From the NCBI RefSeq assembly GCF_000143085.1, contig NC_014315.1, positions 3,254,001 through 3,318,000 of the forward strand: DNA of 64,000 nucleotides. Reading direction: 5' to 3'. The notes under the pieces were generated by a model. That model was not told where the DNA came from, did not search any database, and saw only the letters and a program-made list of their open reading frames with translations. Source of the stretch: Nitrosococcus watsonii C-113. GTDB taxonomy: Bacteria > Pseudomonadota > Gammaproteobacteria > Nitrosococcales > Nitrosococcaceae. Of the stretch, positions 12,157 to 17,851 are shown in pieces. The translations under genes and the position numbers were made by a program. Position 1 is the stretch's first letter; every line of letters starts with the position of its first letter.

Positions 12157-13530
12157 ATGAAAATTATTATTTTAGGCGCAGGCCAAGTAGGGGCCTCGGT
12201 AGCAGTTAATTTAGCCAGCGAAGCTAACGATATTACCCTCGTAGATACCAATGGCAAATTACTGCAAAGTCTCCAGGACCGTTTAGATATCCGAACCGTG
12301 CAAGGCTGGGCCTCCCATCCCGATGTCCTTGCTCAAGCTGGCGCCGAAGACACGGATATGATTGTGGCGGTCACTAGCAGCGATGAAACCAACATGATCG
12401 CCTGTCAAATCGCCTATAGCTTGTTTCATACTCCCACCAAGGTGGCCCGGGTCCGCGCCGCCGGTTATTTAGCCTATCCAGAGTTGTTTTCCACCAAAAT
12501 CTTACCTATCGACGTGCTAATCAGCCCGGAGCAATTAGTTACTGATTATATTAAGCGCTTGATCGATAATCCAGGTACTTTTCAAGTCCTGGACTTCGCC
12601 GATGGGAGGGTCCAATTAGTGGCGGTAAGAGCTTATTATGGCGGTTTACTGGTCGGCCACCAGCTCCGGGAATTATCTGAACATATCCCCGGCGTAGAGA
12701 CTCGGGTAGCGGCCATCTTCCGCCAAGACAAGTCCATTTCCCCCCAAGGTGGCACGGTTATCGAGGCAGACGATGAAGTGTTTTTCATTGCCGCGCAAAA
12801 AGACATTCCTAAAGTCATGGGGGAACTGCGCCGCTTGGACAATCCCTATAAGCGGATCATGCTCGGTGGTGGCGGCAGCATCGGCCAGCGCCTAGCCCAA
12901 GCGCTGGAAGAGCACTATCAAGTTAAAATCATCGAAACTGATCCTAAACGGGCACGAATCCTCTCTGAGGAGCTCCATAAAAGCATCGTCCTGCAGGGCG
13001 ATGCCGCTAGTGAAGAACTCCTGCTAGAGGAGAATATCGAAGATACGGATATTTATTGCGCCTTAACCAACGATGATGAAATTAACATTCTTTCCGCCAT
13101 GCTTGCCAAACGGCTAGGCGCTGGCAAAGTTATGTCCTTAATCAACCGGGCGGCCTATGTGGATCTAGTGGAAAGTGGGGCTGTGGATATTGCTGTCTCC
13201 CCCCAACAGGCTACCATTAGCAGCTTGCTGGCTCACATCCGCCATGGCGATGTGGTGGCTGCCCATTCTTTGCGCCGGGGGGCAGCCGAGGCGTTGGAAG
13301 CTGTAGCCCATGGAGATCCTTCTTCCTCCAAAGTTATCGGCCGGGCTATTGAGGAGATCAAGCTCCCGCCGGGCACCACTATCGGCGCTATTGCGCGAAA
13401 TGAAGAAGTGCTGATGGCCCACCACGATACAATCATTGAATCCGGCGATCATGTCATCTTATTTTTAGTGGACAAGCGCCACGTCCCGGATGTGGAGCGT
13501 TTGTTCCAGGTAGGCTTTACTTTCCTCTGA
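12157..13530 (+). CDS. trkA: Trk potassium uptake protein TrkA
   Basis: 457-aa peripheral membrane NAD-binding regulator of the Trk K+ channel. It has two RCK units, each with a TrkA-N Rossmann fold ([16 protein letters not shown] at the start and [16 protein letters not shown] near residue 230) and a TrkA-C domain. It follows the NtrX-like gene by 41 bp, in the E. coli-like rsmB-trkA order. The TGA stop at 13528-13530 coincides with the first bases of the duplicated TnpB-element right end, so the native 3' end may have been altered. The membrane partner TrkH/TrkG is not in the window. Confidence 0.97.
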
Positions 13531-13631
13531 CACTCTCCGCCCGATTGGGCGGAGGTTCTTGGGTCGCCCCAGGAACCTTCCTGCTTCAACGCGCCTTCCC
13601 TAGACATCGGCGCTGGCCGCTGCCCCCGTTT
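13528..13631 (-). repeat. solitary right-end copy of the TnpB element
   Basis: This 104-bp stretch aligns without gaps to 16545-16648, the 3' end of the tnpB element. It includes an 8-bp hairpin (CTCCGCCC/GGGCGGAG), a second hairpin built on GGTTC and GGAACC, and the last dozen or so codons of a tnpB-like frame ending in the stop at 13600-13602. On the minus strand those codons read TKTGAAASADV against [11 protein letters not shown] in the full copy. The hairpins may also serve as a terminator between the convergent trkA and uvrA genes. It is a relic of a second insertion or a partial duplication. Confidence 0.85.
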
Positions 13632-13640
13632 TGGTAATTG

Positions 13641-16514
13641 TTAAAACGCACGATCATGGCTTTGCTGCACCGGGGACTGACCTCGCTTGGCCTTGGGTAA
13701 AATCCGAGCCAGATAACGTCCAGTATAGGAATCTTGACAGGCAGCTACCGTCTCAGGCGCCCCGGTAGCAATAATCCTTCCCCCCCTTTCCCCTCCCTCG
13801 GGACCTAAATCGACAAGCCAGTCAGCCGTCTTGATGACATCCAAATGGTGCTCAATGATCACAATGGTATTGCCCCCATCCCGCAACCGCAATAGTACTT
13901 GGAGAAGCTGGGCAATATCATGAAAATGCAACCCCGTGGTCGGCTCATCCAGAATGTACAGAGTCCGCCCCGTATCCCGCCTGGCTAGCTCTTTCGCCAG
14001 TTTGATCCGCTGGGCCTCGCCACCCGAGAGGGTAACTGCATTTTGCCCTAGCGTGATATAGGAGAGTCCCACCTCCAGCAAAGTCAGCAGCTTTCGGGCT
14101 ACTGCCGGAACATTAGCAAAGAAATCCTGCGCCTCTTCCACCGTCATGGCTAATATTTCATCAATATTTTTGCCCTTATAACGAATCTCTAAGGTTTCCC
14201 GATTATAGCGCTTGCCCTGGCAAACATCGCAGGCCACATAGAGATCGGGAAGAAAGTGCATCTCTACCTTGATTAGGCCATCGCCTTGGCAAGATTCGCA
14301 GCGTCCTCCCTTGACATTAAAACTGAAACGACCCGGCCCATAGCCCCGGGAACGAGCCTCATGCGTGCCCGCGAATAGGCTGCGAATAGAGGCAAAAAAT
14401 CCAGTATAAGTGGCCGGGTTGGAACGGGGCGTGCGGCCAATGGGATTTTGATCGATAGCGATCACCTTATCCAGATGTTCCAAGCCCTCAATGCTTTCAT
14501 AAGGGGCAGCCTCAACCGAGGCTCGATGAAGAATTCGAGTCGCTGCCCGCAACAGGGTGTCATTGATTAAGGTGGATTTACCCGAGCCGGAAACTCCTGT
14601 GATACAGGTCATTGCTCCTAGAGGAATATCCAAATCCACCTGATCCAGATTATTGCCATGAGCCCCCCGTAAAGAAAGCAGGCGGGAAGTATTGAAAGGC
14701 ACCCGCTGGCAGGGCATGGGGATTTCTTGCTGTCCTTTGAGATACTGCCCAGTCAAGGAGGCCGGATTAGCCATAATCTCGAGCGGCGTGCCTTGGGCCA
14801 CGATTTCCCCCCCATGCCTGCCCGCGCCAGGACCCATATCAATCACCTGATCAGCCGCTCGGATAGCCTCCTCATCGTGCTCCACCACAATGACTGTGTT
14901 GCCCAGATCGCGGAGGCGGATCAAGGTCTCCAGCAACCGCTGATGATCCCGCTGATGCAAACCAATAGAAGGCTCATCCAGAATATACATCACTCCCACC
15001 AAACCGGCTCCAATCTGGCTGGCCAGCCGGATTCGTTGGGCCTCGCCACCGGAGAGGGTCTCTGCGCGCCGATTCAAAGTTAAATAACCCAACCCGACAT
15101 TGATCAAGAAAGCTAGCCGGTCTTGTATCTCCTTAAGGATTGGGTTTGCAATGGCCCCTCGGCGACCCGGTAAACATAGCTGGGAAAACAAGCTCTGCGC
15201 CTCCCCTACAGGCAAGGCGGTGATTTCAGGCAGACTATAATCCGCCACGAATACATGGCACGCCTCCTGGCGTAGCCGGGTACCCTGGCATGCCGGGCAA
15301 ACCTGCACGGCTAAATAGCGAGCCAATTCTTCTCGCACCGCCGAGGTCTCGGTCTCCCGGTAATGGCGCTCCATATTGGGAATCACCCCTTCGAAAGCAT
15401 GGCGGCGGATAGTCTGCTTGTCTTGGCTATCGAGATAATGAAAGGTAATTTTTTCCTGGCCACTGCCGTAAAGTACTACCCTGCGTACTGCTTCGGGCAA
15501 ATCTTGGAAAGGGAGGTCTACCTCAAAGCCATAGTGTCGGGCCAGGGAAAGAATCATCTGGTAGTAATAAGCATTGCGCCGATCCCAGTCCCGAATGGCG
15601 CCCGCAGCCAAACTCAACTCAGGATGGGCCACCACCCGGGAGGAATCAAAAAACGGCTTTACACCCAGCCCCTCGCAACTAGGACAAGCGCCCTTGGGGT
15701 TATTAAAGGAAAATAACCGGGGTTCCAATTCACTTAAAGAATAGCGGCAAACGGGGCAAGCCAAGTGGGCGGAAAACACTTGCTCCGCTAGGGCCGAATC
15801 CTCCAGGGAAGCTACCCGAGCCAAGCCATCAGATAACTGTAGGGCCGTCTCGAAAGACTCCGCCAGGCGCAATTGGAGATCAGGGCGAACCTTGAAACGA
15901 TCCACCACCGCCTCGATAGTATGTTTTTTATTACCATCAAGTTGAGGCGCTTGCTCCAGCTCTACCACTTCACCATCAATCCTGGCCCGGATAAAGCCTC
16001 GCCTCAGCAGATTCTCCAGCACTTGCAGATGCTCTCCCTTGCGCCCTTCGACTATCGGCGCCAGCAACATGTATCGCCCTCCTTTCGGAAGGCCCAAAAC
16101 CTGATCCACCATTTGACTCACCGTCTGGGCCGCCAGGATAATCCCATGCTCTGGGCAACGGGGCTCGCCGGCGCGGGCATAGAGCAAGCGCAAATAATCG
16201 TAGATTTCGGTGATGGTGCCGACGGTGGAGCGGGGATTATGGGAAGTGGATTTTTGCTCGATGGCAATGGCCGGGGAAAGCCCTTCCATATGATCCACAT
16301 CGGGCTTTTCCATAAGGGAGAGAAACTGGCGAGCATAGGCCGAGAGAGACTCTACATAACGGCGCTGCCCTTCAGCATAAAGCGTATCAAAAGCCAGAGA
16401 TGACTTTCCTGAACCCGACAGCCCGGTAATAACGATTAACCGTTCCCTGGGCAGATCCAGATCAATGTTCTTCAAATTATGGGTCCGCGCCCCACGGATG
16501 CAAATCCGATTCAT
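13641..16514 (-). CDS. uvrA: excinuclease ABC subunit A
   Basis: UvrA, the damage-recognition ATPase of nucleotide excision repair. There are two ABC modules: Walker [16 protein letters not shown] near the start and [15 protein letters not shown] near residue 640, each with an LSGGEAQRI signature. Zinc sites CPVC...CPSC and CESC...CDVC are present. The ATG at 16512-16514 ([16 protein letters not shown]) matches the family start; an upstream in-frame GTG at 16550 would add 12 residues. Only about 30 bp separate this start from the right end of the TnpB element, so no room is left for the usual promoter or LexA box directly upstream. Confidence 0.98.
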
Positions 16515-16544
16515 AGCCTTTCGCCTATCAGCGATAAAACTTGC

Positions 16545-16648
16545 TGACACTCCCCGCCCGATGGGGCGGAGGTTCTTGGGTCACTCCAGGAACCTTCCTG
16601 CTTCGACACGCCTTCCCTAGACAGCGGTGTTAACCACTGCCCCCGTTC
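16545..16648 (-). ncRNA. right end of TnpB element, omegaRNA-like hairpins
   Basis: The sequence spans the last codons of tnpB and about 72 bases beyond its stop. On the minus strand it can fold into two successive hairpins: GGTTC...GAACC, then CTCCGCCCC...GGGCGGGGAG. In studied IS200/IS605-type elements the right end is transcribed as the 3' part of the omegaRNA (reRNA) that guides TnpB, and the bases just outside the element form the guide. Here the flank is the uvrA leader. The position and structure are seen; the RNA role is inferred from the family. Confidence 0.6.
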
Positions 16649-17693
16649 CAGTCGCTCCACAGGCCAACCCCGCCAGTCCGGCGGTTAGAATATTTTTGGC
16701 CGCGTTAATATCCCGGTCGTGCTCGGCGCCGCATGCTGGGCAATCCCAGCGGCGCACGCTCAAGGGCATCGCCTCGATCACATGACCGCAGCTGTGACAG
16801 CGCTTCGAGCTGGGAAACCAACGGTCGATCTTGACCACTTGACGACCAGCCCATTTCCCCTTGTACTCCAATTGCCGGACAAACTCGCCCCAGCCCGCAT
16901 CGCTGATGTGCTTGGCCAGCCGCGGATGCTTGACCATGCCCTTGATGCTCAGACTCTCGACCGCCAGCACTTGGTTCTCGTTGATCAGGCGGCGGGTGAG
17001 TTGGTGAAGGTGGTTTTGCCGACAGTCGGCGATCTTGGCATGCAGCCGTGCCACTTTGCGGCGGGCCTTGGCGCGATTGGCCGAGCCCTTCTGTTTCTTC
17101 GCCAGCTGGCGTTGCCGGTGGGCCAACACTCGCCCATAGCGCTTAAGGTGGTGGGGGTTGCCGACCCGGGCGCCGTCGCTGGTCACCAATAGACTGGTGA
17201 GCCCCACGTCAATGCCGACCATCTTCGGCGTGACAGGCAGCGCCTTGGCGTCGAATTCACACAAACACGAGACGAAGTAGCGACCCGCGCGATCGAGGGA
17301 GATCGTGAGGCTCGATGGGGCGCTGGGCAACGGACGACTCCAGCGCACCGGCAGCGCCACGTTCGATTTGGCGATGAACAGTTGGCCATCCCGGTAGCGA
17401 AACGCTGCCCGGGTCAGCCGGATTGACTGACGCCGATGCTTGGATTTGAAGCGCGGATAGCCGGCGCGCCTGTCCCAGAAATGCTTGAAGGCTTGTTGCT
17501 GGTCGCGCAGCGCCTGCTGCAAGATAACGCTGGAGACCTCGACCAACCAGGGATACTCGGCTTTCAACGTCACCAGGCGCTTTTCCAACCTCGAGTGCGA
17601 GAGCGATTCACCACGCTGATAGTAGGCATCGGTGCGCAGGCGCAGAGCATCGTTCCAGACAAAACGCGCACAGCCGAACGAGCGGGCCAGCAA
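16617..17693 (-). CDS. tnpB: TnpB-family RNA-guided nuclease, likely frameshifted near start
   Basis: 358 codons from a TTG at 17691-17693. RuvC-like residues are all present: Asp162 in GIDVGLTS, Glu246 in [12 protein letters not shown], and Asp328 in [11 protein letters not shown]. The zinc ribbon is CHSCG (299-303) and CPACG (318-322). The normal N-terminus [14 protein letters not shown] can be read in frame upstream, but no start codon precedes it before a stop. An ATG at 17744-17746 (MLNA) is in another frame. Removing two bases at the GCGC around 17734-17737 joins them into a classic TnpB start and a 375-aa protein. It is a solo tnpB; no tnpA is nearby. A shortened product from a downstream start cannot be excluded. 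Confidence 0.85.
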
Positions 17694-17802
17694 CTCAGCC
17701 TGTTCCGGCGTGGGATAGAGGCGTTCTTGGTAGGCGCATTGAGCATGAGTTCGAGCTTACAATAAGGTGAATATCCGGTAAAGCCGCTTCGCCGCTTGCG
17801 CT

Positions 17803-17851
17803 TATATTACCGCCCGAGTAGGTGATGCTTTACGCGCCATTTGGTAATATA
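17803..17851. repeat. 9-bp inverted repeat upstream of MFS gene
   Basis: TATATTACC (17803-17811) and GGTAATATA (17843-17851) are perfect reverse complements, 31 bp apart, just upstream of the transporter start. It could be the TnpB element's left-end structure or an operator. Just after it, GAAGCAAAAT-like units repeat in tandem (about 17868-17895) around the annotated start. Confidence 0.45.

Follow-up and report, generated by a model that had tools for sequence, protein, structure and literature searches.

Among the closest described systems, as far as the available excerpts of the respective reports go, IS608 of Helicobacter pylori inserts 3' of TTAC, with AAAG, located 5' of the left hairpin, as guide for TTAC and GAAT as guide for the right site TCAA (PMC5934647). 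The PATEs of Haloquadratum walsbyi consist of element ends only, carry no transposase gene, have near-terminal palindromes, make no target duplication and show strain-specific core deletions at one site (PMC3119063). A PATE-like IS605 element in Halanaerobium hydrogeniformans comprises a short left end, the last 58 nt of tnpB and a full right end, with no genes (PMC7290912), and the reRNA (omega RNA) region of ISDra2 extends over the tnpB 3' end and the right end and takes its guide from the flank (PMC8612924). Here we describe a decayed element of this kind in a window of 64,000 nucleotides from Nitrosococcus watsonii C-113 (NC_014315.1, positions 3,254,001 to 3,318,000 of the forward strand), where it lies between the convergent genes trkA and uvrA and probably exchanged the stop codon of trkA.

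The first-pass annotation had placed at 13528-13631 a solitary right end that aligns over 104 bp without gaps to the right end of the tnpB element 3 kb away. The alignment holds: BLAST of the 104-bp block gives 88% identity (92 of 104 columns, ungapped, E 6.4e-32), which is far from chance, the last tnpB codons and their TAG stop can be identified in frame, the reported hairpins are borne out by folds on both strands, and the trkA TGA (13528-13530) lies inside the block. The location is likewise right, but the extent has to be corrected to 13527-13633 (Table 1). On the minus strand, from 13633 down to 13527, the remnant reads CAAAACGGGGGC...GTGTCAG and is preceded by TTAC (13637-13634); of the left end it keeps CAAA alone. 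Because traces of both termini are present, the remnant is not strictly a solitary right end, and it has relatives both in the window genome (G000) and in that of the sister species (G002). Specifically, the 104 bases find five places in G000, namely the block itself, a 99% copy (C1:940371-940473, the right end of copy L002), a 91% copy, the 88% right end of the window tnpB element and a partial match of 84%, and copies at 99% and 95% in G002.

Table 1. Features at the trkA-uvrA junction and around the neighbouring tnpB element (window positions).
Feature	Coordinates	Strand	Remarks
trkA	12157..13530	+	457 aa, full length; NF007032, protein 1-457 on profile 1-457 of 457; element-supplied TGA
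CTGA	13527..13530	+	reverse complement of the TCAG end; third base of the last Leu codon of trkA plus TGA stop
Ends-only IS605-type element remnant	13527..13633	-	107 bp; CAAA plus 103 bp of right end, ending TCAG
Terminal right-end hairpin	13535..13554	-	stem CTCCGCCC/GGGCGGAG, loop of 4
GAAC, candidate right guide for TCAG	13555-13558	-	just upstream of the right-end hairpin
TTAC target, left flank of the insertion	13634..13637	-	plus-strand reading contains the inferred old trkA stop TAA
uvrA	13641..16514	-	convergent with trkA; mechanical ORF start GTG 16550, inside the tnpB element
tnpB-only (IS1341-type) element	16544..17843	-	1300 bp; separate insertion after TTAC (17844-17847)
tnpB	16617..17693	-	first in-frame start candidate TTG; matches TnpB families

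Short copies of the same family with both ends intact occur in G000 (L002, 232 bp) and in G002 (L009, 227 bp, and L012, 228 bp). After TTAC, these copies run from a left end that has AAAG and a hairpin, through a spacer and the final codons of tnpB, to a right end with hairpins that terminates in TCAG, and they share both ends with the window tnpB element; L002 begins TAAA, not CAAA, and a further copy in G002, L015, has a different internal deletion. The window copy is the same as L009 for the first four bases past TTAC and then skips to the right end. In particular, the right hairpin, GAAC and TCAG are present in the window copy, and the left hairpin and AAAG, which the siblings have, are missing. 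Given the intact siblings and the jump from CAAA to the right end, the window copy is, judged by its sequence, a left-deleted and decayed member of an ends-only (PATE/MITE-like) family of the IS605 type. Across the order, 6 of 63 genomes match, the four of the genus strongly and two others by 36-bp hits (E 9.9e-4). Y1 transposase genes are found in all four genomes of the genus, and no Y1 source with matching ends was found among eight tnpA stretches, five of which were scanned by script without a match and three of which differ by eye. Two tnpA/tnpB elements, L137 (G001) and L139 (G002), have a left end with GCGTAAA plus a hairpin like that of the window copy's family but end in GTCAC; they may represent a sister family or an old transposase source. 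Additionally, CCTGCCTG...CAGG palindromes, which resemble the PATE-targeting small mobile repeats excerpted from the Haloquadratum report (PMC3119063), break the ends of IS605-like elements in L028 (the remnant of G002 described below) and in L063 (the right end of another tnpB element).

To place the insertion point of the family, the flanks of other copies were joined and the genus was searched for element-free sites. The joined flanks of five copies (the window tnpB element, L002, L009, L012 and L015) align to such sites; TTAC precedes each of these copies and is found at the junction in four of the five empty sites. The empty site of the tnpB element is 99% identical over 300 bp in G002 and 84-85% identical in G001 and G003, where it reads TTAA; that of L002, in G002, has 29 extra bases before TTAC; those of L012 and L015 lie in G001 (79%) and G000, respectively; and that of L009, in G000, now reads TCGC. 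These sites indicate that the family inserts 3' of TTAC without target duplication, which is the rule of IS608. AAAG stands 5' of the left hairpin in the intact copies. Among 12 aligned rows, seven, one of them the window copy, carry GAAC as the tetranucleotide 5' of the right hairpin, four carry CAAC and one carries GAAT. By analogy, GAAC would pair with TCAG through a fourth-letter change that matches the IS608 pair, and the rows with CAAC suggest that the guide rule is loose.

Comparison of the trkA-uvrA junction, as proposed at the outset, covered the four genomes that a search for the genus returned (G000, G001, G002 and G003). The block is absent from G001 and G003, which have no element between trkA and uvrA. 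In G002, a 91-bp remnant with the same flanks as the window copy is present; its left end, which the palindrome CCTGCCTGCGGCAGGCAGG interrupts, is kept, and of its right end no more than the final 9-13 bp match family right ends. The window copy begins TTAC/CAAA and ends TCAG/AGGAAAG, and the same two junctions are found in G002. Its joined flanks align with G001 and G003, which have TCAC there, not TTAC. Because the junctions are shared, one insertion with complementary losses is the simplest history, and we consider it very probable that one shared insertion took place in an ancestor, at a TTAC on the trkA stop, that the stop was silently swapped and that the element was later crippled in complementary ways, leaving a functionless relic. 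In such a history, the common ancestor of the window species and G002 would have received a non-autonomous element of the IS605 type, ~230 bp long and made up of left end, tnpB tail and right end, mobilised in trans by a Y1 transposase, 3' of the minus-strand TTAC in the few bases between the convergent trkA and uvrA. This TTAC would have coincided in part with the plus-strand CTG TAA, the last codon and stop of trkA, and the right terminus TCAG, being CTGA on the trkA strand, would have produced CTC TGA, with the same leucine, a new stop and an unchanged protein. Complementary internal deletions would later have removed the left end save CAAA in the window lineage and nearly all of the right end in G002, so that the present remnant would be an immobile and probably functionless relic. 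An insertion relic had been one of the possibilities raised at first, and the complementary remnant of G002, the element-free G001 and G003 and the sibling copies with element-free sites all argue for it.

In the window, trkA ends TTC CTC TGA. The joined flanks would give an ancestral TTC CTG TAA, from which the change of CTG TAA to CTC TGA is silent; trkA of G001 and G003 ends TTC CTG TGA, which counts against an ancestral TAA. The last residues of TrkA are VGFTFL in each of the four genomes of the genus, and 79 of the 80 best further TrkA loci stop right after the residue aligned with residue 457, the remaining one stopping one codon later. Since this end is the same in element-free relatives and in other loci, the element, which supplies the stop of trkA, did not reset the C-terminus of TrkA. 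The suggestion in the first-pass annotation that the insertion may have reset this C-terminus is thus contradicted, the block-free relatives having both the same protein end and TGA as stop.

The frame is kept because GTAA and CTGA carry the stop at the same offset: the antisense target GTAA holds TAA and the element end CTGA holds TGA, and insertion therefore exchanges stop for stop. Of the 15 sense codons of the form NNG, 8, including CTG, CCG and GGG, keep their amino acid when the accompanying change turns them into NNC. By their letters, TTAC/TCAA (IS608) and TTAT/TCAA would also swap stops; among 39 elements in six species, the right site is reported to be TCAA in 16 and the left site TTAT in 10, the excerpt of that report giving no pairings (PMC9956272).

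For further cases, an antisense frame ending on the element TGA was sought at 21 right-end loci, which are the 23 places found in the genus less two 24-bp hits; at one of the loci, L011, the element end was not located by the script. Clear frames are present at 3 of the 21, in trkA (457 codons), a hemW-like gene of G001 (385) and a ParE-like gene of G000 (98), and two further candidates, counted from their first Met, are 69 and 92 codons long. The hemW-like gene ends CTA TTT TTA CCC TGA in G001 with the element and CTA TTT TTA CCG TAA in G003 without it, both reading LFLP before the stop, in a comparison that concerns the gene-side junction only, the left flank of the G001 copy being TTGC and unmatched to G003; in G002 this gene ends CCA TAA. 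The copy at the hemW-like gene (L019/L096 in G001, against L097 in G003) is a family member with an internally deleted tnpB. The ParE-like gene ends AAC GGC TGA in G000 with the element and AAC GGG TGA in G001 without it, FNG in both, and the left junction of this copy is lost. The TGA of this toxin gene (L005/L115, G000:C1, about 2726157) is provided by the terminus of a different right end of the family, also decayed. Within the window, insertion at 87 TTAC sites would leave the 61 predicted ORFs undamaged, and 6 of these sites would give a stop swap. Set against this, the 3 of 21 right ends give P 0.17, and we claim no preference for stop codons: the counts show tolerance, not preference. 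Other tnpB subfamilies were also considered as a source of extra cases and rejected for the 9 of 30 loci at which the TnpB C-terminus was found: all nine have another type of right end (...AAACTCCAA), and the list of antisense ORFs there has two entries only, which end 269 and 277 bases past the tnpB stop. Among the open-access papers listed, titles and abstract openings yielded none on stop-codon replacement by IS605 elements. As a tentative proposal, which we rate as unlikely, stop-for-stop exchange would be a built-in property of TTAC-type (and TTAT/TCAA-type) IS605 elements, which would land on the stop of a convergent gene, supply a new one and so settle in tight convergent junctions with the protein unchanged; this property may even have shaped which cleavage sites are kept.

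The tnpB element 3 kb away has its site empty in G001, G002 and G003, which makes it a separate insertion, and a later one if the trkA insertion is shared with G002. Residue 2 of its TnpB, counted from TTG, aligns with residue 21 of the solved TnpB chain 8bf8, and the start ATG of the relatives shown is out of frame in the window; with TTG as the first in-frame start, about 20 N-terminal residues would be missing. One close tnpB only is present in the window genome, the next best being at 49%. Over the whole window, Rfam gives one match at gathering score, a tRNA. RAGATH-18, a family linked to TnpB guide RNAs in the excerpt of PMC11061315, appears below threshold on the right end of the tnpB element (16595-16663, E 0.085, 21.6 bits against a gathering score of 44.9) and has no match on the window copy; the other sub-threshold Rfam hits are at chance level. 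The tnpB element ends ~30 bp upstream of the probable ATG of uvrA, at 16514, in the same orientation. As the element lies upstream of uvrA, 1.3 kb now separates this gene from its old upstream region, and uvrA may now depend on transcription through tnpB.

Sequence hardly decides which copy was the parent of the two trkA-uvrA remnants, and a single copy rests on the shared junctions. Over 103 columns, the window right end shows no substitution and one gap against L009, one substitution and no gap against L002, and 5 and 12 substitutions against L012 and the window tnpB element, respectively; the left end in G002 agrees with L009 in 38 of 40 columns, with L002 and L012 in 37 and with L015 in 36. 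Halves that do not point clearly to a single parent copy, in remnants that have only the extreme ends in common (CAAA at the left and 9-13 bp at the right), could also stem from separate insertions in the two sister species, in each of which a member of this family would have hit the same TTAC and been truncated later. We regard this as improbable, because the tetranucleotide, the orientation and the flank junctions on both sides are identical and one insertion is simpler. What does count against a single insertion decaying into a relic is the conservation of the right end, which seems to exceed the need of a dead relic: 22 of 221 fourfold sites of trkA differ between the window genome and G002, while the right end matches L009 without substitution. 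Slow local change, on which the 99% identity of the region upstream of uvrA bears, later exchange, or constraint before the loss of the left end are possible causes. The same strong conservation would suit a domesticated terminator or insulator between the convergent genes, as would folding energies of -45.8 kcal/mol (z -1.85) on one strand and -43.8 kcal/mol (z -2.47) on the other and the hairpin and palindrome that the G002 remnant retains too. However, hairpins are expected of any end in this family, G001 and G003 do without the block, and a simple consensus scan of 13400-13760 for intrinsic terminators (G+C-rich hairpin plus T-run), which is blind to factor-dependent termination, finds none in the block on either strand, its one hit lying upstream within trkA with 0.6 expected by chance. 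The domesticated terminator, which the first-pass annotation had offered beside the relic, has little likelihood.

That annotation had also offered a trans-acting guide RNA, which would direct TnpB against the element-free trkA-uvrA allele for homing or retention. Indeed, the flank past TCAG, when placed behind TTAC, would match the inferred element-free allele, and the right ends of the family share a fold that covaries. From the 21 loci, 18 right ends were cut out and 12 of them aligned, six near-identical or oddly ended ones being left out, and the consensus fold of the 12 rows has five helices with 98.0% of cells paired. In this alignment, 38 cells are changed on both sides against 14.7 in shuffles (none of 500 as high), the covariation score is 0.299 against 0.199 (above all 500), and nine pairs are changed on both sides (reached by 6 of 500), counts that are optimistic because the rows are related; further pair types are not raised (497 of 500 shuffles as high), and slid versions of the alignment all score far lower. 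The window copy, however, is empty in columns 1-32, which contain the 5' strand of helix 1 and five of the six positions of the 5' strand of helix 2 and which L002, L009 and L012 have; its conserved omega RNA/reRNA scaffold is incomplete. Moreover, the sole close tnpB has no ATG in frame, and in the other three genomes its site is empty. When as many as 3 mismatches to TTAC plus guide are allowed, the window genome offers as target only the element's own flank, with TCAG; the best matches across the four genomes are likewise the elements' own flanks, with TCAG instead of TTAC, and G002 has one unrelated TTAC site with 3 mismatches. A guide role in trans is therefore unlikely for the window copy, and its use against the element-free allele for homing or retention strikes us as highly improbable.

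Taken together, the kind of element is already known, and the stop swap is the interesting part. These findings suggest that a transposon can insert at the stop of a conserved gene, in a junction that has hardly any DNA to spare, without damage to either protein, and the hemW exchange in another species, probably with that in the ParE-like gene, suggests that such an event is repeatable. If this were true of IS605 families generally, it would provide a simple reason for tolerance at gene ends, and a gene that ends inside an element would not have to be a truncated gene. The outcome also removes a tempting guide-RNA story for the block.

The family described here resembles the PATEs of H. walsbyi, as excerpted, in being ends-only without a transposase gene, with near-terminal palindromes and no target duplication, and the core deletions of PATEs are paralleled by the window and G002 remnants (PMC3119063). 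It differs from them in that its intact copies retain the tnpB-tail/right-end RNA region and in that hardly any of the left end remains in the window copy. L002, L009 and L012 have the layout of the H. hydrogeniformans element, which belongs to another family, is present in one copy and is described in the excerpted account without stop-codon exchange (PMC7290912). Insertion 3' of TTAC and AAAG 5' of the left hairpin are as in IS608, in contrast to which the elements here end in TCAG, with mostly GAAC instead of GAAT/TCAA, and contain no tnpA (PMC5934647). Finally, a predicted RNA region that covers the tnpB 3' end and the right end, with a guide derived from the flank, is as in the ISDra2 reRNA (PMC8612924), but the window copy contains only part of it.
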